Shown here piece after piece: positions 11,257 to 23,444 of a DNA stretch of 64,000 nucleotides; the stretch's first letter is position 1; each line of letters starts with the position of its first letter. The stretch spans positions 1 through 64,000 of the forward strand of contig NZ_JACJSJ010000006.1 of assembly GCF_014698115.1 (NCBI RefSeq), written 5' to 3'. Source of the stretch: Nostoc sp. FACHB-973. Lineage in GTDB: Bacteria > Cyanobacteriota > Cyanobacteriia > Cyanobacteriales > Nostocaceae. The translations under genes were made by a program, and so were the position numbers. A model generated the notes under the pieces. It was not told the DNA's origin and did not search any database. It was given only the letters and a program-made list of their open reading frames with translations.

Positions 11257-13167
11257 TCACAACTTCGTCCCACACTCAGCACAGAAGTTATGAGTTGGAG
11301 CATTTTTCGCATTGCAGTGGCCACAATAAACTGGCTCTGCTGCGGCTTTAGGTGTTTGTTTGGGCAAACCGACCATTTGAGCGTTGCTCTTGCCAGGGGC
11401 TACCATTGGATAGCAATTTTCATCTCTGGTAACGTGGACATTCACAATTACCGGGCCGTTGTGTGCCAGCATTTCGGCGATCGCATCTTTTAATTGACTG
11501 CGATCGCTAATTACCATGCCCTTGATTCCATAGGCTTTTGCCAATAACTCAATGTCTGGCATCCCTACTTCCATGTTCGAGCATGAGTAACGTTCGCCAT
11601 AGAAGGCTTGCTGCCACTGGCGTACCATTCCCTGCCAACCATTATTAATAATTAGAGTCTTGACATTAATGCCATATTGTGCTAGCGTTCCTAGTTCCTG
11701 TAAGCACATCTGGAAACTAGCATCACCGCTAATACAGATTACTTCTTCATCGGGAAACGCGACTTTAGCACCCATAGCAGCAGGTACGCCAAAACCCATC
11801 GTTCCTAAACCTGCGCTAGAAATCCAGCGTCTGGGGCCGTTCTTCAAAAATTGCGCTGCCCACATTTGATGTTGTCCGACATCTGTTGTGTAGAAAGCGT
11901 TGGGTGCTTGGCGACTAACTTCGACGATCGCTTCTTGGGGTGAAATGCTGTCTGTATGTTGGGGTACTACTAGGGGATACTCTTCCCGCCAACGGTTAAC
12001 TTTAGTTAACCACTCTTGATTTTGATTTGGTGTAGCCTTGACGCCTGCTTCCTTGCAGCGACGCAACAAGTCAATTAACACGTTTCGCACATCGCCGACG
12101 ATGGGCACTTCCGGAATGCGGTTTTTGCCGACTTCTGCGGGATCGATGTCGATGTGAATTACTTTGGCGCGGGAGGCGAATTCGTCTAATTTGCCTGTCA
12201 CGCGATCGTCAAATCTTGCACCGACGCAAATTAACAAGTCACAATCACTCACGGCAAAGTTAGCGTAAGCGGTGCCATGCATTCCCAACATTCCCAAAGC
12301 TAGGGGATGATGTTCGTCAAAGGCACCGATCCCCATTAAGGTTGTGGTGACAGGGATATTGAATAACTCAGCTAATTGTTTGACTTCATCGTGGGCACCT
12401 GCGGCGATCGCACCACCACCTACATACAGTAGCGGACGGCGGCTTTCAGTAATCAACTGAATTGCTGCCTGAATTTGTCGGGGGTTTCCCTTCACCGTGG
12501 GACGATAACCGCGTAACTTCACTGAACCTGGTTTCACAGGCACATAGTCAAATTCTTCTAAAGCTACATCCTTGGGGACATCAATTAAAACTGGCCCTGG
12601 ACGCCCCGTGCTGGCGATGTGAAAAGCTTCAGCGACAATTCGCGCCATATCTTTGGGATCGCGCACTACATAGGAGTGCTTCACAATTGGTAGCGTAATC
12701 CCGTAAATATCGGTTTCTTGAAACGCATCTGTACCAATGGACGGACGTGCAACCTGTCCCGTGACTACAATCATCGGGATCGAATCCATGTAGGCTGTGG
12801 CGATGCCTGTTACCAAGTTAGTTGCTCCTGGGCCAGAAGTACCAAAACATACTCCTACCTTGCCTGTGGCACGTGCGTAACCGTCGGCAGCGTGGGCTGC
12901 GCCTTGTTCGTGTCTCACTAGAATGTGCTTAATTGCACCAGTTGCTTCCACCTTGTACAGGTCGTCGTAAATTGGCAGAATCGCCCCACCAGGATAACCA
13001 AAAATATACTCAACGCCGTGGCGATGAAGGCTGTCAAGCAGAGCAAAACCGCCAGATGCACGTTTGGGCACCACTGGTGGGTTATTACGGGACTGTTTGT
13101 GATTCTCGGTTTGTGGGATACTGATTTGGGAAGGTAATTCTCCCACGGAGACACTTTGTGAACGCAC
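11257..13167 (-). CDS. ilvB: Acetolactate synthase large subunit with zinc ribbon tail
   Basis: The ThDP- and FAD-dependent catalytic subunit of acetohydroxyacid synthase, the first step of branched-chain amino acid synthesis. N-terminal landmarks are [20 protein letters not shown] and the catalytic glutamate in [17 protein letters not shown]; the C-terminal ThDP motif runs from GDASFQM to [11 protein letters not shown]. The core ends around residue 590, yet the protein continues with a Pro/Ala linker and a CxxC-x10-CxxC zinc ribbon (last 25 residues), which typical IlvB proteins lack. GTG 13167 is preferred to the TTG at 13173 because a GAGG site lies 7 nt upstream of it. No ilvH gene adjoins. 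About 636 aa. Confidence 0.93.
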
Positions 13168-13299
13168 GGTCAAACCTCAGACTATAGCTAAAGTTAATGC
13201 TGACTTCTGTAGTTAAGATTTCATTTTAATAGAAAAGTTCAATTAAATCCTGATTAATTTATAGATTCCAAATAAAGCCAGATTATTAGCCTACATTAG

Positions 13300-14562
13300 T
13301 TAAATTACGTCTTGCAAGACTCTGCGGGTATTTTGCCAAGCCCAAACACCGACAAGTACGACAAGAATACTCATAACTACAAGCACAGTTCTCAATCCCA
13401 AAGCATCAGTTAATGGTCCAGTAATCGCCAAGGGTGCAGATAAGGCGATGTTGACAGCATGATTTTGAAAGCCAAATACTTTACCATGCATTGTTGGTGG
13501 TGTTTGCTGTTGGATTAAAGTTTGCATAGGCACACCAATAAAGGCAGCACCAATGCCCAAAATTGCACACAGTCCCAGCGCCAGCAATAAGTTGTGCGTA
13601 AAAGTGAACACTCCTAAAACTAGAGCTATCATCAAAAATCCAATTAAAGGTAAGGGCTTGTGGTGCAATTTATCACCCCAATGACCTAAAAGCGCCGCAC
13701 CAAATACCATACCCACCCCAGCTGCTGCTAAGAAAAAGCCAAACTGTTTTTCTTGGAGACCAAACTCGTCGGCTAATCGAATCGTCAGCACCGTTAAGGC
13801 TGCAAACACACAATATAATGTTGTTAGTTGCAGCATAGCGTTCAAGACCAAACGGTTTTTCTTGAGATAGCGTAGACTCGTGGTGAATTCAGCCCAAGGG
13901 TGATTTTCGCCTTGATGTTCCCTTAGTGGTTTGTGTTCTTTAAACTTAATCGGCTGCATAATCCCAGCGGATAATATGTACAATCCTCCAACCACAAGCT
14001 CTTGACCGTATTCTTCTCCCATCCAGCTTTTCGCCAAACTCAAAATCGGCTCTCCTATGGCAAAGCCAACAATTAAAGCTCCCATCATCGTGCTGCTGAA
14101 CAGTGCATTGGCTGCCAACAAATTCTCTCGCTTCACTAACAAGGGAATGGCTGCTTGCTCAGCTGGGGCAAAAAACTGGGTGACAGTGGAAATAGCAAAA
14201 GTTAGGATTAACAGAATCAAAAACTCCCGTGGCAACAACGGAAGACACAGCGTTAATATTCCGCGCACAACATCTGAGCCAACCATAATCAGCTTTTTTG
14301 GCAACCGATCAACAAAGATACCACCGGCAGAACCAAACAAAATCGCTGGGATGGTAAACGACAGCATCAAAGTTGAATACATCGAGTTTCGTGCTAACCC
14401 AGGAAGCGGTGAGTAGTTCTCCAAGAGAGCAATCATCAAAACAAAAAAGACTTTATCTGCTAACTGGGACACTAGTTGCCCAATCCACAGGAGCATAAAA
14501 CCACGGTTTTTTAGCAGTGCGCCAAACCCGTTATTCACAGCGGCAGGTTCTGTTGGAAACAT
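13300..14562 (-). CDS. MFS transporter, MdtH/Bcr-like efflux type
   Basis: A 420-aa major facilitator protein with about twelve hydrophobic segments, for example residues 18-42, 58-82, 100-135, 145-175, 215-245, 255-280, 285-320, 330-350 and 375-410. The loop GGIFVDRLPKKLIMVGSD (about 78-95) is the MFS motif A variant between helices 2 and 3, and GHWGDKLHHKPLPLIG the matching loop in the second half. Such MFS_3-type proteins usually export drugs or metabolites (enterobactin exporter EntS belongs here). The substrate cannot be predicted. It lies upstream of ilvB on the same strand, 132 bp away, without evidence of a shared role. Confidence 0.85.
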   Translation of the reverse strand: MFPTEPAAVNNGFGALLKNRGFMLLWIGQLVSQLADKVFFVLMIALLENYSPLPGLARNSMYSTLMLSFTIPAILFGSAGGIFVDRLPKKLIMVGSDVVRGILTLCLPLLPREFLILLILTFAISTVTQFFAPAEQAAIPLLVKRENLLAANALFSSTMMGALIVGFAIGEPILSLAKSWMGEEYGQELVVGGLYILSAGIMQPIKFKEHKPLREHQGENHPWAEFTTSLRYLKKNRLVLNAMLQLTTLYCVFAALTVLTIRLADEFGLQEKQFGFFLAAAGVGMVFGAALLGHWGDKLHHKPLPLIGFLMIALVLGVFTFTHNLLLALGLCAILGIGAAFIGVPMQTLIQQQTPPTMHGKVFGFQNHAVNIALSAPLAITGPLTDALGLRTVLVVMSILVVLVGVWAWQNTRRVLQDVI

Positions 14563-14584
14563 CAGTTACTTTGGGTAGATGGGC

Positions 14585-14700
14585 ATAGGGAGTGGGGAGT
14601 GGGGAGATGGGGAGATGGGGAGATGAGGGGACAAGGAGAATAATTCTTAACTCTTAACTCTTAACTCCTAACTCCTAACTCCTCATTCCTAACTCCTGTT
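14585..14700. repeat. Short tandem repeats between MFS and hydrolase genes
   Basis: GGGGAGT / GGGGAGATG tracts are followed by repeated TAACTCT/TAACTCC units. The stretch holds no gene and is likely the 3' end region of the hydrolase-like gene. Confidence 0.75.
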
Positions 14701-14720
14701 TACTTACTCCATTGTCCGGA

Positions 14721-15314
14721 TTAATTTGCTTCATAGCGTTTTAACAGCATACGCAAAAATTCAGCTGCACTTAGATGGCCTTTGGGGGGAAAAATTCCAA
14801 TGGATGAATCTACCCACCAACCTTGTACAGTTTCGGGCGATCGCCAAATGGCGATATGATCGACTGCTGGTTCTGCATAGAAGTTATTTTGCCCACTACC
14901 AAGCAAACTAGAACTCCAATGGGTGAAATAATCATGACTCATCCGATGAATTGGGAAATTACCTTGTAGTGGCACCCCCCATCCATCTATAGCAATAAAC
15001 GCTTTGACACGACCACCCAAGAGTTGCCACAAAATAGCTGCACCCATTGCCCCGACTACGCCAGCGCTAAAACTAATGAATATTAGTGGGGATTCAAAAG
15101 AGTTGTTTAGGGGATACCTGCGGTGAGCTAGGCTAACGCGCAAAAACTCCAAAATGTGCAAAGCTGATAAACTCGAAAAATCTTTACCCGGAAAAACCAG
15201 TATCTTACCTTGATTTTGGTCTATCGAGCCACCAGAAGTATCTAACCACCCCGATATAAAGGATTCTGTGAAAGCTGCATCGTGGATTCCAGGGCAAATA
15301 ATTATTGTGGACAT
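14721..15314 (-). CDS. Alpha/beta-hydrolase-like protein, cyanobacterial
   Basis: A 197-aa protein with an alpha/beta-hydrolase look. The first strand is STIIICPGIHDAAF, the nucleophile elbow is ISFSAGVVGAMGA (Ser in S-x-S-x-G form), and a histidine occurs in the C-terminal part (PPKGHLSAAEFL). The substrate is unknown. The frame is open back to 15404, but the extra 30 residues (with CPMPNVQCPM) translate a GGCATTGGACATT heptamer repeat and the end of a MITE, so ATG 15314 is chosen. The gene is isolated; the repeats upstream probably shaped its promoter. Confidence 0.65.
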   Translation of the reverse strand: MSTIIICPGIHDAAFTESFISGWLDTSGGSIDQNQGKILVFPGKDFSSLSALHILEFLRVSLAHRRYPLNNSFESPLIFISFSAGVVGAMGAAILWQLLGGRVKAFIAIDGWGVPLQGNFPIHRMSHDYFTHWSSSLLGSGQNNFYAEPAVDHIAIWRSPETVQGWWVDSSIGIFPPKGHLSAAEFLRMLLKRYEAN

Positions 15315-15392
15315 TGGGCATTGGACATTGGGCATTGGACATGAGGCATTGTAAGACAAATCTTTGCGCCTAGTTATCGATGTATATCGTGA

Positions 15393-15497
15393 TATAGGAC
15401 TCATATCTGATTTCTGAACAAGATTTCAGATAAAACCCTAGATAAAACGGGCTTTTCAGTCTCAGTATGTTTTCAGAAATCAAATCGGAGTCCTATA
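15393..15497. mobile_element. MITE-like element with TATAGGACTC ends
   Basis: A 105-bp element whose ends TATAGGACTC and GAGTCCTATA are perfect 10-bp inverted repeats; pairing resumes a few bases inward (TGATTTCTGA against TCAGAAATCA). It has no coding capacity and sits just upstream of the hydrolase-like gene, separating it from the divergent LemA operon. Confidence 0.65.
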
Positions 15498-15662
15498 GCA
15501 GCTTTTAGTATTAATCACTTAAATCTGAGATTAAGGTCTTATATACTACCTTATTTGTACTGAATAAATTATAACTGCTTCACATATTTTTCCGAAGGAA
15601 TACTATTTAAAAAAACTATTAATTTGGATTATAAATAATCTGAGATTAATCTAATCAATTTC

Positions 15663-16220
15663 ATGTTTATTTATTTAATTATTTTTATAATTTTATTATT
15701 TACTATTTATGTTTACTTGTACAATAGTGTAATTTACAAAAAAAATCAAGTTGACAATGCATTTTCTAGCGTGGATGTGATTCTGCAAAAAAGAAGTGAT
15801 TTGATACCTAGACTTGTTACTTTAGCTCAAATATATATGCAATTTGAGCAACAAATATTGATAGAAATTAGCAGGCTCAGAAGTAGAGCAAGTTCAAAGA
15901 ACTTGAGTGATAATAGCCGAGTTGCTATAGAAGACCAAATTTCGAGAATGTTAAGCAAAATTATAGTAGTAATAGAAACATATCCAGAATTAAAAACAAA
16001 TGACCATTTTATCCAATTACAATATTCATTGAGTGAAGTAGAAGAACAACTTTCCGCCGCTAGAAGATTTTATAACTCTGCTGTAACTGAATATAATAAT
16101 GCCGTAGAAATGTTTCCAACAAACATTATAGCTTCGTGGATGAAATATAAATTAAAATTACAGTTTCAAGCTAATCTATCAGCAAGAAATAATGTAATTA
16201 TTGAAATCAACCATAAGTAA
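15663..16220 (+). CDS. lemA: LemA family membrane protein
   Basis: A 185-aa LemA protein: one N-terminal membrane helix (residues 1-21), then a long helical cytoplasmic part. Family signatures are YNSVIYKKNQVDNAFSSVDV with ILQKRSDLIPRLV (about 25-54) and the C-terminal LQYSLSEVEEQLSAARRFYN / VTEYNNAVEMFP. LemA proteins are of unknown biochemical function but often sit beside membrane proteases or DUF3137 proteins, and here the next gene, 11 bp downstream, has a DUF3137 domain. No strong Shine-Dalgarno is seen. The DNA is much richer in A/T than its flanks. Confidence 0.88.
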   Translation: MFIYLIIFIILLFTIYVYLYNSVIYKKNQVDNAFSSVDVILQKRSDLIPRLVTLAQIYMQFEQQILIEISRLRSRASSKNLSDNSRVAIEDQISRMLSKIIVVIETYPELKTNDHFIQLQYSLSEVEEQLSAARRFYNSAVTEYNNAVEMFPTNIIASWMKYKLKLQFQANLSARNNVIIEINHK

Positions 16221-16231
16221 GTTTAAAAAAA

Positions 16232-18247
16232 ATGTCAAAATTCAATTCTGCACAAAATCAGGAATTATTAAACGAAATAGCTAAACTATTACAATATCAA
16301 AAATATAATCTAGCACTTCAGGGATTAGAAAATTTTTTTCAAAATAATATAGAATCTAATACAAAAGAATATTTATATGCACGAGTATTGCTTTTAGACG
16401 CATACTTATATAATGGACGGTTTGATAAAGCAATTAACTTATGCCAAGAATTGAGCAAAAGTAAACATCAAACGACTCAGATATTAGCACAATACTATCT
16501 TGCCCAAATATTTCCAGAAGCTAAACCTACAGAAGAAAAATCATCAATAAATTCAGCTAAAACTTCACTTACTCCTGCACAAGCAACTGAACTGATAAAT
16601 ACTGGGTATGAAGCTCTTACTAAAAAGCGCTATCAAAAAGCAATTCAAGCATTAAAAATTTTCTGTCAAGCTGCTTCTCCAGCTACAAAAAATTATTTAC
16701 AAGCACATAAATGGCTGATAAAGGCATATCAGGAGAATGGGCAAATTAATCAAGCGATCGCTCTTTGTCAAAAACTCCTGATTAATCAACACGAAGCAAC
16801 GAGAAAATGGGCAAGGCGACTTTTATTTACAGACTTATTTATAGACAATATTGATGTGTCTACCACTGCACCAATTGAAACCTTATCAAAAGAAGCCGAA
16901 CCAGCTATTGAAAAGTTTACCCCAAAAACATTAAAAGAATTCAAAGTATTTTGTCAGAAAAATTTATTGGGCGAATTAAAAGTATTTGAATCTCGAAGGA
17001 AACAAGCTTTATTATCTATTATTACTCTTAATCTACTTTTTTTATCTTTTTTAATTATAACGTTCAAGCTTCTCTCCATGATATCTTTTGATATCAACGA
17101 TTATATTTATATTGAAGAACCTTCATTGTTTGAAAGTCACTCTACACCAATAGCCGTACTATTTATCTCTACAGTTATAATTTTTATTTTTTATTTTTTC
17201 AATTATTCGTTGGCATTTTTATTAGTTTTTTGGATTTGGATATTTTTTTATTCGACAATTTTTCAAGGCTCTTTTACCGATTTTACATACAAAATATCTG
17301 AGAAAATATTTGCTTTTACAAATCAAAATAAGAATTTAAAATATCTTAATTATTCTTCAAAAGAAGATAGTGAAAATACTATCAGTTCTTTTCAACATAG
17401 CGAATTATTTAAAGGACTTATCAATCCAAATAATATTGAACGTGATGTTTATATTTATGGTAAAATCAATGGTATTGATATCTGTTTATCGAATATTCGC
17501 GCAGAATTAGAACTAAAACATGATTGGACTAATTTTTTAGATATTATCTTTTTTATGGTTAGGAGATATGAAACAATAATTCAATCCAATATAATTTATC
17601 TGTTTATATTTTCAATCTTACGTGTTATATCCTTGTTCATATTTATTTTACCATTTACATTTGGTGCTTTAATTTTCAGATTTATCAAAATAATTCCATA
17701 TATAATTAATCATATTTTACGCGGCAAAAATATTGAATATAAAAAATTTGAATCTGAAGTTTTAAAAAATCAATTTACCCGAACAAATTTAATCTTTAAA
17801 GGATTATTTTTTAAAGCTAAGTTTAACAAAAATATGCGGACTGTCACGATTGTTCAACCAAAAGTTATCAAGGCTAATATTCATGCTCTTAATCATACTA
17901 AAAAACAGGTAATTAAATTAGAAGATCCAGAATTTGCTAAACTTTTCACTGTTTATGCTGATGACCAAATAGAAGCACGTTATGTTTTATCTACTAATTT
18001 AATCGATAAAATAGTTAAATTTCGCAAGAAAACCAATAGAAATATTTATATTTCCTTTGTTGATGACATGATATACATAGCCATTGAAGAAGCAGTAGAA
18101 AATAATATATTTGACCCTAATCTATATAAAAGTGTGTTAAGCTTTGCGCCTTTAAGAGAATATTTTGAAACTCTCAACTTGATGTTGGGAATTGTTGAAG
18201 ACTTAAATCTTGATAGACATATTTGGCAAAAAGCTGCACCAAATTAA
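16232..18247 (+). CDS. TPR and DUF3137 membrane protein
   Basis: A 671-aa protein in three parts. Residues 1-210 hold TPR-like helical repeats (YNLALQGLENFFQNN, RFDKAINLCQELS, RYQKAIQALKIFC, QINQAIALCQKLL). Residues about 260-360 contain three hydrophobic helices, with another pair around 455-490. The rest matches DUF3137: FKGLFFKAKFNKNMRTV, LEDPEFAKLFTVYADDQIEARYVLS and the VDDMIYIAIE strand. It lies 11 bp after lemA in a bicistronic unit; LemA and DUF3137 proteins are commonly adjacent in bacteria. A membrane complex is likely but its job is unknown. Very AT-rich with many Lys, Asn and Ile codons, unlike its neighbours. Confidence 0.82.
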   Translation: MSKFNSAQNQELLNEIAKLLQYQKYNLALQGLENFFQNNIESNTKEYLYARVLLLDAYLYNGRFDKAINLCQELSKSKHQTTQILAQYYLAQIFPEAKPTEEKSSINSAKTSLTPAQATELINTGYEALTKKRYQKAIQALKIFCQAASPATKNYLQAHKWLIKAYQENGQINQAIALCQKLLINQHEATRKWARRLLFTDLFIDNIDVSTTAPIETLSKEAEPAIEKFTPKTLKEFKVFCQKNLLGELKVFESRRKQALLSIITLNLLFLSFLIITFKLLSMISFDINDYIYIEEPSLFESHSTPIAVLFISTVIIFIFYFFNYSLAFLLVFWIWIFFYSTIFQGSFTDFTYKISEKIFAFTNQNKNLKYLNYSSKEDSENTISSFQHSELFKGLINPNNIERDVYIYGKINGIDICLSNIRAELELKHDWTNFLDIIFFMVRRYETIIQSNIIYLFIFSILRVISLFIFILPFTFGALIFRFIKIIPYIINHILRGKNIEYKKFESEVLKNQFTRTNLIFKGLFFKAKFNKNMRTVTIVQPKVIKANIHALNHTKKQVIKLEDPEFAKLFTVYADDQIEARYVLSTNLIDKIVKFRKKTNRNIYISFVDDMIYIAIEEAVENNIFDPNLYKSVLSFAPLREYFETLNLMLGIVEDLNLDRHIWQKAAPN

Positions 18248-18389
18248 TTTCACCGAAACTTAGCTTTTCGGCATCTTAACTGCTTTCGCTATTCCAGCGA
18301 TATAGCAGATGGGGTATTGGTTGAATTTTCCATGCCCCATACCCACCTAAGTTTTATATGTCTTTTGATGTATTATTTTGATTTTTCCA

Positions 18390-18412
18390 CCCATCCTATC
18401 CCCCCGGATGGG
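18390..18412. repeat. Hairpin in the leader of the ferrochelatase-like gene
   Basis: CCCATCC and GGATGGG pair around a C-rich loop, 85 bp before the GTG start at 18497. It could be a terminator-like or regulatory hairpin. No function is established. Confidence 0.4.
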
Positions 18413-18496
18413 ATAATAATTTACTAGTAGGGAAAGTGTTCCAGCTATTCCCTAACTTTAAATTCTCTGCACTCTGGTTATATTGAGGAAGTTATT

Positions 18497-19615
18497 GTGG
18501 TTGCAACGCCCGAAAAACTACAACATACTCACGAAGAATTATCAAGTAAAGACCGCGTAGCCGTATTGCTGATGGGCTACGGCGAAGTCGAAAGCTACGA
18601 AGATTTTGCCAACTATAACGAACAGGCTTTAAATCTCCTGACAGCAAAATTCGCACCGGTACCAACCTGGATTTATCCGCCCCTAGCAAAACTTTTGGCG
18701 CTATTTGACCGCCACGAGTGGGGACACACACACCACGATTTTATCTCCCCACACAACGCCATCTTTGAACAGCAACGGGCTGGGATTGAGAAGAATTTAC
18801 AAGAAAAATGGGGTGATAAGGTTCAAGTTTTCAAAGCTTTCAACTTCTGCGCCCCTTTTCTGCCCAACCAAGTTTTAGCAGAAATCAAAAACCAAGGCTT
18901 CGATAAGCTGCTAATTTATCCACTGTTAGTGGTTGATTCTATTTTTACTAGTGGGATTGCGATCGAGCAAGTTAACAATGCTCTCGTTGAGTTGACTGAT
19001 GGTGAAGAACACTGGGTTAAAGCACAGCGCTACATTCCTTCTTTTTTCAACGAACCAGCCTACATCGATTTGATGGCTCATCTAGTTGAGGAGAAAATTA
19101 ACGCTGGTTTAGCAGCAGCTTACCTACCTTCTCAAATCGGTATTGTGCTAATGAATCACGGCTGTCCCCACAAAGCCAAAGGATTTACCTCTGGAATTAC
19201 CGAAAGTCAAGCGCTATACGATTTAGTACGGGATAAGTTGATTAACCGCTATCCTTTAATCTCAGTGGGTTGGCTCAATCACGACACCCCTCTGATTGAG
19301 TGGACACAGCCAAATGCACATCAAGCAGCAAGTAACTTGATTCAATTGGGTGCAAAAGTAGTGGTATTTATGCCAATAGGCTTTGCTACGGAAAACCACG
19401 AAACTCTGTTAGATGTGCATCACATTATCCATGCTTTGGAAAAACAGCATCCTGGTACAAACTACGTACAAATGGCTTGCGTTAACGACCATCCGGAATT
19501 TTTAGCGATCGCAGCTCAATGGGCTGACGCTCATATTGCACAATTATTATCAGAGGAAACTTTGGCAGTTAATCCCCAACTAGCTGACCATCACCATCAC
19601 CATCACCACCATTAA
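18497..19615 (+). CDS. Ferrochelatase-family protein with C-terminal octa-His
   Basis: A 372-aa protein of the class II chelatase superfamily, HemH-like in length and order. Landmarks are VAVLLMGYGEVES at the start of the first Rossmann half, the second-half VLMNHGCPHKAKG (His221) and FATENHETLLDV (His301, Glu302), which corresponds to the metal-binding FVS-x-H-x-ETL motif of ferrochelatase. A cluster HEWGHTHHDF lies at 73-82. The protein ends in eight consecutive histidines (365-372) directly before the stop. It lacks the C-terminal CAB helix of the main cyanobacterial ferrochelatase, so it is probably a paralogue. GTG is chosen because GAGGAA lies upstream. The inserted metal and tetrapyrrole are unknown. 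Confidence 0.72.
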   Translation: MVATPEKLQHTHEELSSKDRVAVLLMGYGEVESYEDFANYNEQALNLLTAKFAPVPTWIYPPLAKLLALFDRHEWGHTHHDFISPHNAIFEQQRAGIEKNLQEKWGDKVQVFKAFNFCAPFLPNQVLAEIKNQGFDKLLIYPLLVVDSIFTSGIAIEQVNNALVELTDGEEHWVKAQRYIPSFFNEPAYIDLMAHLVEEKINAGLAAAYLPSQIGIVLMNHGCPHKAKGFTSGITESQALYDLVRDKLINRYPLISVGWLNHDTPLIEWTQPNAHQAASNLIQLGAKVVVFMPIGFATENHETLLDVHHIIHALEKQHPGTNYVQMACVNDHPEFLAIAAQWADAHIAQLLSEETLAVNPQLADHHHHHHHH

Positions 19616-19817
19616 GTTTAATTTTTTGGGGTGGGCAAAGCTCTGTCCACTCCAGATTTAGATTTCAAGACATAGATGTAGTTGAAATTTTGATATCGCA
19701 TCGTTGCAGATGCTCCTGAAGCCTTCATTTCCGTCTGCGCTGCGTTACCGACGTAGAATTATTTTTTAAAGCAATTTTCAGGTAATCAAACCATAGGGTA
19801 GGGGCGCACAGCTGTGC

Positions 19818-20022
19818 ATTAGTGTCAAATTAAGCTACAAATAGCTTCACTGTTGGCTTTGTCGCCCGCCTTGAACTCAAGTTCTTTGGCTTTCAGAAGA
19901 CAGTCTACTGAAGTAGACTAAAGATTTTTGACAATATTTAGTCATCTAAAGATTACTTTTGCTATTAGCAAGGAACTGAAGTTCCTTGCGGGACATCAAT
20001 TTTACGTTAAGTTGACACCAAT
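19818..20022. mobile_element. MITE-like element nested in a GGGGCGCACAGC repeat
   Basis: A 205-bp element with 16-bp terminal inverted repeats differing at two positions (ATTAGTGTCAAATTAA against ATTGGTGTCAACTTAA when the right end is reversed). The interior holds two small palindromes, AGTCTACT-GAAGTAGACT and AAGGAACT-GAAGTTCCTT. Flanking sequence (GGGGCGCACAGCTGTGC on the left, GACAGCGGTGCTACCC on the right) looks like one older repeat split by the insertion. Confidence 0.6.
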
Positions 20023-20254
20023 GACAGCGGTGCTACCCTACAAAGGATTGTGGTTCAAATAGATGAAAACGGCTGTAAGGTAAAACTCAGCTTAAACTCA
20101 GTATTATCACTCATGTTATTTCGACTGAGTAAAGTTATTCTGTAACCAATGATATCACCCCTGGTACGTATTAAAAAATTACAAGCTCTTGATATCAAAT
20201 ATCGGTAAACACTTATTATTAAATCTCTGTGCCTCAGAGCGTCCACCACGTCAG

Positions 20255-20291
20255 CCCTAATGATAAGTCTTCAACCGGACATGATATGACT
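20255..20291. repeat. Solo end of the 10164-type MITE
   Basis: AATGATAAGTCTTCAACC followed by GGACATGATATGAC matches the right end of the element at 10164-10339. A left end was not found nearby, so this is a fragment. Confidence 0.6.
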
Positions 20292-20807
20292 GGTGACGCA
20301 ACAAGGGTTTTTAGTAGCTTTTAGGAGCTTTTGGCGTTAATTAAAGATGCGCCAAAATCTGACTAATGGCGATGAAACTGTAGATTGGCGCAAAGATTCA
20401 AAGAGTGCAAAAAAACACTAAGACTTTGCCATTTTACTGAGTATCCAAAATAATTTGTTGGATAAATATTTGCCCAAGTAATTTTCGGCAAAAAAGTAGG
20501 GGTGCTGTTATCCAACAGCAGCCAACATTTTTGTGGAATTAATCCACTGTTTTCCTTGTTCTTTGAATGAAATTCAACACTGAATTAGAAGGATTTACAC
20601 ATGGCAGAAGCAGTCGTATTGGTACTATTAAATAGTTGATTTTCATCTAGCGTCTATTCATGAAGCTTAATTTAGAAATTAGCTATTTTTAAGCAGCCTA
20701 AAATTATAAATTAATTAGTATTAATCCAATATATTTAATTAATTGTTTTCAGGAATTATAAATAAAAATTATTCAATTATTTATTGTGGGTGGAGAGAAG
20801 TCTGAGA

Positions 20808-20945
20808 TCAATACTGCGTAGGTTTTGGTGCCTAGTCATCGGAGATCCCCCTTAGTCTGCCTTCTTAAGCGGAAAAATAAGGCATTTTTAGCCCCCCTTT
20901 TTAAGGAGAGTTGGGGGGATCGACTCAAAACCTACGCAGTATTGA
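20808..20945. mobile_element. 138-bp MITE with perfect ends and 8-bp target duplication
   Basis: The terminal inverted repeat TCAATACTGCGTAGGTTTTG is 20/20 identical at both ends. The 8-bp direct repeat GTCTGAGA flanks it exactly (20800-20807 and 20946-20953), a clean target-site duplication. The interior has complementary GATCCCCC/GGGGGGATC pieces and a CTTAAGCGG stretch and no ORF. Intact ends and duplication imply fairly recent movement in trans by an IS elsewhere in the genome. Confidence 0.9.
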
Positions 20946-21266
20946 GTCTGAGATAAGGCTTCCTTAGATCAGAACTTCGGAGCGGAGCGTCTCGCCCGCC
21001 CAGTTTATAGGCGGTTAAGATGCCCAAAACACAAGTATTAGTAATTTATTTATTGGAGTTACCTTATCAAAAAATATCTTAATAAATAGAAAAAATGTCT
21101 AAAATTGTTTTAATAATTTTTAATAGAATAAAATTGTTTTTTCTCCTGCTTTTTTAATGGGTTGTGTTATCTTTTATGAATTCCCAAATATCAATAAAAT
21201 GTATCTAAAGCTAGACACATGTTATTGATTTTATTACTGAAAATTTTACTAAATACAGGAGCAAAT

Positions 21267-23444
21267 ATGTCTCTAACTTCTCATGTAATATCTTCTTCTT
21301 TAAGTCTTTCAAAAACAGATGTGCAAAGCCTTCTAATTCTTTTATATAAATTAGTAAAACTTAGTAAAACTTCATTGCAATACATGCAATATGAATACAA
21401 CTATAGTTATATTCCTCCTCTAGCAATGACAGGCGCTCTCCCATTGCCAGTCATTAAAATACAACTCCCAATTCAAGAGTTACCTAATTTAAAATGGGTA
21501 CTTTCAGTAGCCCAAAAGATAACGCTGATTTTGGTAAATGATACTCTAGCTAACTTGGCAAATTCCTTAGACTCTGATATGTCTTACGGACTCGATGCTG
21601 ATGCCCAAATCAATAGCTCAGCCCTCGACAGCAAAGTACAAGCTTTAGAAGATATCGAGCAACAAATTAAAGATGCTGAGAGTTGCGAAAACTTAGAAAA
21701 AATTGCTTTGAATTTGGCATCAATAACTCAAGAAATTGCGGAAAAAATTGTTAGTATAAATCCCTCTAATATTGTGTCATTTGATCCTGACGAAATATCA
21801 ATTTTTGAAGCAGAACTTAAAAGCATTGATGAAGAATTTGAATTGCATGAATTCCACCAAGATTCTGGAAATGTAGAATTTTTGTCGTCATTTAGTTTAG
21901 AAGATTCCATTACAGATTTATTGAGTTCTGCTTTCAAAAAAATCATTAATTCTGATGCTAAATTGTTGAAATTAAAAGACAGTCAGCCATATTCTAGAGA
22001 AGGAAAATTTTCTACAGAAGCATCTGCAACTAACCGAAGTCTGGAAGATTATAATAAATTATTTAAAAAAATACCTCTACCAGAGATTAGCTCTAGGTTT
22101 AGAGAGGATTTAGTCTTTGGTTATATGCAGGTTGCTGGGCCAAATCCGTTGATGCTGCAACAGGTATCAGACCAGGAAAAAAATTTACAAATTAGCAACG
22201 AACAATATCAACAAATTATCGGCATTGCCAACGATTCTCTGGAAGCTGCAAGACAAGAAGGTCGGCTTTATAAAGCTGATTATTCTAAGTTAAAAAATAT
22301 GGAGAATGGCAGTTTTCCTAATCAACAAAAGTATATCTATTCACCTTTAGCATTATTTGTAGTACCACCAGCTAGCAACCCATCTCGGTCTTTAGTTCCA
22401 GTGGCTATTCAATGCCAGGCGGAACACCCGGTGTTCACACCTCTTGATGGCGAGAACTGGGCGATCGCCAAAAGTATTGTGCAAATGGCGGATAGCAATT
22501 ACCATGAGCTAGTTAGCCATCTTGGTCGCACTCACTTATTTATCGAACCTTTTGTAATTGCTACTAAACGTCGGTTACCAGCAAACCATCATTTAAGGAT
22601 TTTACTGGAACCTCACTTTGAAGGAACTATATTAATCAATTACGGCGCCCATAAACTCTTGATTGCCGATCGCTCTCAAGTAGATGCAATTTTAGCCGGT
22701 ACAATAGAGAGCGATCGCCAACTCACTGTTGAAGCTGCCCAAGATTATTTGCATCATTTCAACGATGCAATGTTTCCCAACAGTTTAACAAGTCGCGGTG
22801 TTGACCGAGTTTCTCAACTACCTGAATATCCTTATCGAGATGACGGACTGCTGATTTGGAATGCTATTCATCAATGGGTACGCGCCTATTTGAGCAGTTA
22901 CTATATCAGTGGGCAACAACTACTAGCAGACCAAGCTTTACAAAATTGGGCAAAGGAATTAATTTCCCAACAAGGAGGCCGCCTCCAAAATTTTGGTGAA
23001 GATGCTTCAGGCACAATTAAAACTTTAGATTATCTCATTGACGCTGTTTCCACCATTATTTTTACTGCTAGCGCCCAACACGCTGCGGTTAATTTTGCCC
23101 AAGGCGAACTGATGACCTATACACCTGCTTTTCCTCTAGCCAGTTATTCACCAGCACCGACAAATCTCGACCAACCAGGCGACTTTATGAGTATGCTACC
23201 TTCCATAGAACAAGCCAAAACCCAACTTAAGGTCACATATTTACTTGGGTCGGTTTACTATACACAGCTAGGGCAATATTCCAACTCATATTTTAAATCC
23301 AAGCCACAAATAAGTTCAGCTTTGCTGACTTTTCAAAATGAACTCAAAGCAATTGAGCAAGAAATTACTCAAAGGAATCGTACAAGAATAATGCCTTACA
23401 AATTCTTGCTACCTTCCCAAATTCCACAAAGTATAAATATCTAA
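21267..23444 (+). CDS. Lipoxygenase with long N-terminal extension
   Basis: A 725-aa iron lipoxygenase that dioxygenates polyunsaturated fatty acids. All five metal ligands are visible: His413 and His418 in HELVSHLGRTH, His605 and Asn609 in HAAVN, and the C-terminal isoleucine (SINI). Spacing between the second and third histidine groups (192 residues from His413 to His605) equals that of plant enzymes. The catalytic domain starts near residue 276 (FREDLVFGYMQVAGPNP). The preceding 275 residues are Leu/Ser-rich helices with no PLAT domain and no recognised family. ATG 21267 is preferred over 21219 because CAGGAGC lies just upstream. No oxylipin gene (hydroperoxide lyase, AOS) adjoins. Confidence 0.9.
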   Translation: MSLTSHVISSSLSLSKTDVQSLLILLYKLVKLSKTSLQYMQYEYNYSYIPPLAMTGALPLPVIKIQLPIQELPNLKWVLSVAQKITLILVNDTLANLANSLDSDMSYGLDADAQINSSALDSKVQALEDIEQQIKDAESCENLEKIALNLASITQEIAEKIVSINPSNIVSFDPDEISIFEAELKSIDEEFELHEFHQDSGNVEFLSSFSLEDSITDLLSSAFKKIINSDAKLLKLKDSQPYSREGKFSTEASATNRSLEDYNKLFKKIPLPEISSRFREDLVFGYMQVAGPNPLMLQQVSDQEKNLQISNEQYQQIIGIANDSLEAARQEGRLYKADYSKLKNMENGSFPNQQKYIYSPLALFVVPPASNPSRSLVPVAIQCQAEHPVFTPLDGENWAIAKSIVQMADSNYHELVSHLGRTHLFIEPFVIATKRRLPANHHLRILLEPHFEGTILINYGAHKLLIADRSQVDAILAGTIESDRQLTVEAAQDYLHHFNDAMFPNSLTSRGVDRVSQLPEYPYRDDGLLIWNAIHQWVRAYLSSYYISGQQLLADQALQNWAKELISQQGGRLQNFGEDASGTIKTLDYLIDAVSTIIFTASAQHAAVNFAQGELMTYTPAFPLASYSPAPTNLDQPGDFMSMLPSIEQAKTQLKVTYLLGSVYYTQLGQYSNSYFKSKPQISSALLTFQNELKAIEQEITQRNRTRIMPYKFLLPSQIPQSINI

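Follow-up and report, generated by a model that had tools for sequence, protein, structure and literature searches.

A recurrent LemA–DUF3137 gene pair and its fixed, decaying site upstream of hemH in Nostoc

The 64,000-nucleotide stretch of Nostoc sp. FACHB-973 DNA considered here (hereafter, the window; contig C220 of a 9.52-Mb genome) carries a lemA gene followed by a gene for a DUF3137 protein with a tetratricopeptide repeat (TPR) arm. The pairing of lemA with a DUF3137 gene recurs well beyond the cyanobacteria and, within Nostoc, the pair occupies a fixed site just upstream of the ferrochelatase gene hemH, where both genes are under purifying selection; the pair is nevertheless dispensable, as strains lose and break it. 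As to its role, we tentatively favour, from partner genes, gene order and predicted topology, a membrane quality-control module that would face the cytoplasm and in which DUF3137 would replace a protease. The parts of the pair are as follows.

15663–16220, forward strand: lemA, 185 amino acids, one N-terminal transmembrane helix and the LemA helical bundle (PF04011, 2ETD)
16232–18247, forward strand: TPR–transmembrane–DUF3137 gene, 671 amino acids (PF11335, E = 1.3e-40; TPR_19, 26.1 bits)
16250–16825, forward strand: TPR arm, two similar units, residues 7–90 and 116–198, 38% mutual identity (self-comparison)
17000–17266, forward strand: first hydrophobic region, a transmembrane hairpin, residues ~257–345 (hydropathy; position common to the family)
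17570–17719, forward strand: second hydrophobic region, residues ~447–496, an insertion before the Pfam DUF3137 region (hydropathy, alignment)
17792–18211, forward strand: DUF3137 domain (profile search)

A sequence-only reading of this DNA had described a LemA membrane helix-bundle gene and, 11 bp further on, a gene for a TPR–transmembrane–DUF3137 protein, and both open reading frames were indeed found in that layout, on the forward strand. The lemA product belongs to the Pfam LemA family, PF04011 (142 bits against a cut-off of 26.2, E = 1.4e-41), and has a relative of solved structure in 2ETD (E = 1.4e-22); with a single membrane helix predicted by hydropathy at residues 1–19, ahead of the helical bundle, its proposed identity stands. 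The second protein matches PF11335 over residues 521–660 (139 bits against a cut-off of 26.1), and its DUF3137 domain is complete, covering profile positions 2–139 of 139. Its TPR_19 match is marginal (26.1 bits against a cut-off of 25); an internal repeat is also seen. Pfam thus recovers both domains of the proposed architecture, but not its single transmembrane part, as hydropathy reveals about four hydrophobic segments. The second hydrophobic region also occurs in some cyanobacterial relatives, and is missing from the short forms aligned. There is no Pfam match to M48 at E ≤ 1 and no HExxH motif in the DUF3137 protein, which is therefore not a member of HtpX/M48. Separately, the window LemA matches phrog_1383 of PHROGs, annotated 'virion structural protein' (1.5e-11).

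The same reading had held that LemA–DUF3137 pairs recur without a known function, and a survey of gene neighbourhoods bears this out. DUF3137 clears the cut-off in 10 genomes of the order (195 sampled) and in 120 of 386 of the phylum, the phylum matches lying mostly in family f47, in genomes of 1.6–2.5 Mb with up to nine DUF3137 matches each. We read 35 loci, namely, the five near-complete Nostoc copies, ten other genomes of the order, five genomes of the phylum outside f47 (G307, G518 and G530 being left out) and 15 of the best-scoring f47 loci. Of the 20 loci outside f47, 16 have a same-strand lemA ahead of the DUF3137 gene, including two with broken DUF3137 frames (G036 and G190); 14 of these 16 have a gap below 80 bp, G517 has one of 490 bp, and that of G190 could not be measured. 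In G114, LemA is a few kilobases off on the opposite strand, and no LemA was found near DUF3137 in G178, in G161 (where DUF3137 is under the family cut-off) or in G470 (a fragment). Inside f47, the count is four of 15; some of these loci of small-genome cyanobacterial relatives (L202–L216) have DUF3137 genes in tandem, and 11 have no neighbouring LemA. Three further phyla show lemA directly upstream of DUF3137, in a Campylobacter metagenome-assembled genome (whose contig could be misassigned), in Pontibacillus and in Thermus, so that the arrangement is seen in Cyanobacteria, Campylobacterota, Bacillota and Deinococcota. The Pontibacillus (NZ_CP062975) and Thermus (NZ_AP025594) pairs resemble that of the window in gene order, with spacings of −4 and 10 bp, respectively, but their DUF3137 proteins have 363 and 360 residues and no TPR match, whereas that of the window has 671 and a double TPR arm. 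Plasmid carriage was considered and set aside: tblastn with the window protein found a DUF3137 relative in one of 72,556 plasmid records, although a Thermus plasmid reached via its LemA carries two more DUF3137 genes, so this search missed some relatives. Two pattern-based scans of viral contigs found no relative.

LemA itself is present in 6 of 14 control genomes, including Escherichia coli and two archaea, and it has other partners besides DUF3137. The window's own genome encodes two LemA proteins and one DUF3137 protein. The second lemA, on contig C242, is followed by a gene whose product is M48 by Pfam and M48/HtpX-like, under the NCBIfam cut-offs; likewise, the open reading frame after a second LemA gene of this Nostoc type has HExxH at 20 of the 21 loci compared, one of which is from G067 and the rest from genus genomes. 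The exception, G033 (L095), shows the start of the same M48 protein and then broken frames; this genome also keeps only remnants of the LemA–DUF3137 pair. Neighbouring htpX and lemA genes are common elsewhere. On eight named plasmid loci, chosen by eye from the search tables, lemA is followed by DUF3137 (Thermus), M48 (B. ovatus and M. branderi), DUF2207 (Sulfitobacter), TPM (Methylomagnum and Thiodictyon) or a hypothetical protein (Microvirga), and in Halomonas by TPM after 838 bp with no listed gene. The DUF2207 and TPM pairs follow the same operon logic as LemA–DUF3137. The LemA–M48 pair on C242 shares with the window pair a lemA gene followed at once by a gene for a membrane-anchored protein; it differs in that the window protein has neither M48 match nor HExxH, and the two kinds of LemA sit on separate branches. 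Indeed, in a tree of 32 LemA proteins, the 22 that are paired with DUF3137 fall on one side of a single branch, which is not starred (support 92/90) and appears in 92% of the 200 bootstrap trees, and the partner labels need four changes, the minimum, against a mean of 9.6 when shuffled. This tree omits G036, which is near other rows, and G114, whose genes are non-adjacent, retains G190, includes three Nostoc-type M48-paired loci and has four rows on long branches. These comparisons support LemA lineages that would be matched to their partners (M48/HtpX-like, DUF2207, TPM and DUF3137). A distant kinship between DUF2207 and DUF3137, prompted by a sub-cut-off match in the Pontibacillus protein, was rejected when hhalign against one DUF2207 protein gave no support.

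The TPR arm provides a second link to M48 proteins. It consists of two similar units of ~84 residues, 38% identical to each other, the second of which is 35–47% identical to the arms of TPR-M48 proteins. With orthologues, remnants and one f20 DUF3137 protein set aside, the best matches to the arm among 79 relatives are proteins of ~665 residues: of the 21 best-scoring loci, 18 have HELGH, one is M48 by Pfam without the motif (in the window's own genome, on C185) and two encode short TPR proteins. Pfam confirmed M48 in two of the TPR-M48 proteins so matched. Nostoc M48 proteins other than the one encoded next to lemA thus carry a TPR arm resembling that of the window, and the order TPR, two membrane segments and head is common to the DUF3137 and TPR-M48 proteins. 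The TPR half had earlier been taken for an addition that would offer a protein-docking arm; docking remains a plausible use for it, but it is no addition of this genome, as 4 of 10 further DUF3137 proteins pass the TPR_19 cut-off and BLAST also aligns the arms of three f20 proteins. We also observed that in two TPR-membrane-M48 proteins, G000:C185 (L002 and L233) and G031:C57 (L224), HExxH is replaced by TQLGH (the reading in C185) or TQVGH; because of this replacement, the proteins in these two Nostoc genomes are probably dead proteases (seven longer relatives in other genomes were not scorable by the same anchor).

Charge counts suggest how the two proteins might sit in the membrane. In 24 LemA proteins, there are eight lysine and arginine residues before the helix and 60 after it; in DUF3137 proteins, the figures are 69 before the first transmembrane segment, 16 in the loop and 43 after the second (18 of 20 proteins, two having fewer than two detected segments). 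Judged by charge only, the cytoplasm would house the helical bundle of LemA as well as the two soluble parts of its DUF3137 partner. The active site of HtpX is cytosolic.

From the partners, the gene order and this topology, we infer a two-gene membrane module, probably made from one transcript. LemA, with one membrane helix and its helical bundle on the cytoplasmic face, would act as platform or activator for a second protein that has its TPR arm and DUF3137 head in the cytoplasm and, between them, a membrane hairpin. The arm would recruit client proteins, as it may in the TPR-M48 proteases of the genus, and the head would then handle them non-proteolytically, serving as holdase or adaptor in the quality control of membrane proteins. 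Complex formation, client binding and the function of the pair are all conjectural at this level. More broadly, and just as tentatively, LemA may serve bacteria at large as a membrane platform for interchangeable downstream heads (M48 protease, DUF2207, TPM and DUF3137), each with its own LemA lineage, DUF3137 being a non-proteolytic head that in cyanobacteria would carry an M48-type client-docking TPR arm. The Nostoc locus would then show one such head, always in the same place, in a natural series of presence, absence and decay. Should the partner-specific lineages hold up, head swaps would provide a test of LemA function, and in Nostoc there are strains in which the copy at this one site is naturally intact, broken or absent.

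Several points weigh against this quality-control reading. TPR arms are promiscuous, and the weaker arm matches include many unidentified proteins. The TPR-M48 proteins are not seen beside LemA, and the Nostoc M48 protein that is beside LemA has no TPR match. The nearest outgroup of the DUF3137-paired LemAs is an M48-paired LemA, that of B. ovatus, with just ten other LemAs sampled; adjacency to lemA is limited to 4 of the 15 f47 loci; and hhalign saw no relation between DUF3137 and the one DUF2207 protein compared. The charge count for LemA is biased by short N-termini, and PMC3905215 places the C-terminal domain of LemA outside. Finally, AlphaFold2 gave a mean predicted local distance difference test score of 40 for the window protein (five rows) and 42 for the short relative from the Campylobacter metagenome-assembled genome (four rows); neither structure is usable, and the mechanism is therefore inferred. 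A profile search of the PDB with DUF3137 returned ten weak matches (best E = 0.0016), nearly all of them membrane-helix stretches of receptors or fusions, or designed helical proteins, with one penicillin-binding protein at E = 0.17; these were taken as chance.

No description of the LemA–DUF3137 pair, or of its TPR form, was found among the literature matches listed, which mostly do not cover subscription journals, and among the openly searchable papers two name DUF3137, each only in passing. The LemA literature reports pairs of LemA with DUF2207 (PMC12631010), raised lemA expression in a signal-peptide-peptidase mutant (PMC13236525) and a two-hybrid contact between LemA and YidC (PMC8546722). 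PMC4902198 describes MamQ, which acts in magnetosome formation, possibly as a hub, as the sole LemA member tied to a known cellular process, and according to PMC12631010 LemA proteins may take part in restructuring the cell membrane. By analogy, the window LemA could be the hub of a membrane-shaping scaffold that organises proteins before remodelling, with DUF3137 and its TPR arm as organiser or cargo binder. We regard this as unlikely. The window LemA does match the NCBIfam MamQ model, but at 67.4 bits, so far under the 250-bit equivalog cut-off that it is not a MamQ, and it is MamR and MamB, rather than DUF3137, that come after MamQ (PMC4902198); the likeness is thus one of LemA family and model match, and the partner gene differs. 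Moreover, because 32 of 46 scored Nostoc genomes (see below) hold no trace of the pair, it is not needed for thylakoids.

The site within Nostoc involves the following further features.

14721–15404, reverse strand: left neighbour, hydrolase-like by eye, a conserved flank of the site (no Pfam or NCBIfam match)
15536–15662, forward strand: conserved 5' leader and presumed promoter region of the pair (identity among five Nostoc copies)
16594–16603, forward strand: 10-bp stretch, uninterrupted here, duplicated around an insertion sequence in genome G240 (comparison with G240)
18497–19615, forward strand: right neighbour, ferrochelatase gene hemH, a conserved flank of the site (PF00762, 1.4e-38)

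We surveyed the stretch upstream of hemH, which was found in all 53 genus genomes searched, as far as the contigs reach, and mapped the left neighbour, an MFS gene and the pair. Both genes are open in four of the 53 (the window, G003, G015 and G012), the DUF3137 frames of G003 and G015 stopping some codons before that of the window, so that the match counts an internal stop. In G036, lemA is open and an in-frame stop splits the DUF3137 gene. In G240, of the same species as the window, that gene is split within its TPR part by a 2.1-kb insertion sequence (L126:2433–4528) with 26-bp perfect inverted ends and a 10-bp target duplication; its transposase has DNA-binding and DDE domains over the cut-off and a sub-cut-off Tn5 dimerisation match. 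Only remnants survive in eight genomes (G029, G001, G245, G037, G046, G033, G032 and G043), the shortest being ~70 bp, in G043. The 32 genomes without trace all show the left neighbour, and seven were not scored: the left neighbour is missing within ~6 kb in G013, G035 and G026, and the contig ends in G244, G010, G028 and G034. In the two nearest other species, the sister strains G005 and G008, the site is empty and its junction is the same; short tandem-like GCATTGG repeats lie at 15300–15360, at the N-terminus of the left neighbour, and similar repeats mark the empty site in both. In eight pair-less genomes, the gap between the left neighbour and hemH holds other genes, for which Pfam gives NB-ARC/TPR in G002, an Na+/H+ antiporter with CrcB in G023 and WD40 repeats in G024; those in G018, G020, G025, G031 and G243 were read by eye only.

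On a tree of hemH and the MFS gene from 53 genomes, with strong support on 28 of 50 inner branches, presence (as trace or intact copy) turns up in places as far apart as the deep G012/G043 clade and the clade of the window, and presence versus absence needs 11 changes, a count (four contig-end genomes left out; G013, G035 and G026 taken as absent) that does not separate gain from loss. Loss of the pair is proven by the persisting remnants. Such a record, of no fewer than 11 changes across the genus tree with signs of within-genus exchange, and of eight remnants, one stop and one disruption by an insertion sequence at a single site whose gap elsewhere holds accessory genes, is also what might be expected of a conditional module for competition, stress or phage defence, gained and lost under fluctuating selection. 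We nonetheless consider such a role rather improbable: neither protein matches a PADLOC anti-phage model, Pfam finds no nuclease or toxin in either, the two viral-contig scans were empty, and the pair, which has a LemA lineage to itself, is seen as an operon in several phyla. More improbable by far is a link of the module to haem or iron through the neighbouring ferrochelatase, suggested by the fixed site on the same strand just upstream of hemH and by a Bacteroides DUF3137 gene that is 4.2-fold down under iron depletion (P = 0.353, not significant; PMC10434189). Every genome has hemH, yet most of those scored (32 of 46) lack any trace of the pair, and ten order-level stretches (L056–L065) contain no hemH match; this reading was rejected on the distribution of hemH.

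The pair is markedly AT-rich, as the sequence-only reading had observed: its guanine-plus-cytosine (GC) content is 0.275, against ~0.45 and 0.44 in the flanks and, with the 64-kb window as baseline, a sliding-window mean of 0.419 (sd 0.044), only 0.6% of same-size windows being as low. The minimum, 0.269, belongs to a stretch that overlaps with the pair and starts ~110 bp ahead of lemA; the two genes of the pair (0.275 and 0.276) are the lowest of 45 non-overlapping open reading frames of at least 100 residues (mean 0.427, sd 0.051). However, the low GC does not mark the pair as the recent foreign island that this reading implied. Four other Nostoc genomes, among them that of the deep G012 lineage, have the pair at the same hemH-adjoining site and with a GC of 0.286–0.294 (0.275–0.294 over the five near-complete copies, with flanks of 0.43–0.45), and on these grounds its low GC is an old and stable trait in Nostoc. 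Additionally, no tRNA or other Rfam RNA was found in 13000–21000, nor a mobility gene among the five genes between 13300 and 19615, so neither the restricted presence and composition nor the edge genes of a recent island are seen here. In six other cyanobacterial stretches, the pair lies 0.01 to 0.09 below the GC of the whole stretch (the L059 value includes intervening genes). Recent import from an AT-rich donor, to which the empty site of G005 and G008, with its shared junction, might also point, is therefore largely refuted and very improbable, given further that the Nostoc LemAs group in the LemA tree with those of two other genera of family f1, that divergence within the genus is too deep for a recent event and that the divergence test described below suggests a source within Nostoc for the copy in the window. 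The sequence-only reading had named vertical inheritance that is widespread and of unchanged composition as what would refute an island, and this is found in part: composition and site are conserved, whereas presence is patchy and descent seems not to be purely vertical. Elsewhere in the window, a lipoxygenase gene (21219–23444; PF00305, 6.4e-58) is also low in GC, at 0.373.

The history of the window's copy was approached through a divergence ratio, i.e. the synonymous divergence of the window to G003 and G015 over that of G003 to G015, which involves these three genomes only. The ratio is 0.96 for the pair (bootstrap 0.80–1.14) against 1.71 (1.52–1.97) for four flanking genes together. Individually, the DUF3137 gene gives 0.89 (0.75–1.09), whereas lemA, at 1.23 (0.83–1.79), is inseparable from the flanks: hemH 2.05 (1.52–2.90), the MFS gene 1.63 (1.26–2.16), a 638-residue gene 1.66 (1.37–2.06) and the left neighbour 1.50 (0.97–2.36). 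Because its ratio is the lower, the window's copy, clearly so for the DUF3137 gene, looks younger than its surroundings, which suggests a source inside the genus. This supports within-genus exchange, which accords with the empty-site junction common to G005 and G008; strains would probably re-acquire the pair by recombination between the conserved flanks. Among the Nostoc copies, the ratio of non-synonymous to synonymous substitution rates is 0.20–0.47 for lemA and 0.30–0.42 for the DUF3137 gene, and both are thus under purifying selection. The constraint is weaker than on hemH and the 638-residue gene (0.03–0.10) or the MFS gene (0.08–0.20), and about as strong as on the left neighbour (0.17–0.37).

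Upstream of the pair, positions 15536–15640 of the leader have a mean pairwise identity of 0.84 among the five Nostoc copies, against 0.51 for a comparison stretch at 15405–15500, whose rows are possibly not homologous. RNA folding of the leader was unremarkable (z = 0.32 and −0.24) and Rfam gave no match there; a promoter scan gave a signal at shuffle level. A leader regulon was considered and rejected: a 19-bp piece of the leader has one exact site in the window's own genome, and its four other sites, with three mismatches, are at chance level, as the reversed control pattern gives six. In G042 (L130), where the pair is missing, the DNA upstream of hemH still holds 19 bp that match exactly part of the far upstream region in the window, which hints at a deletion.

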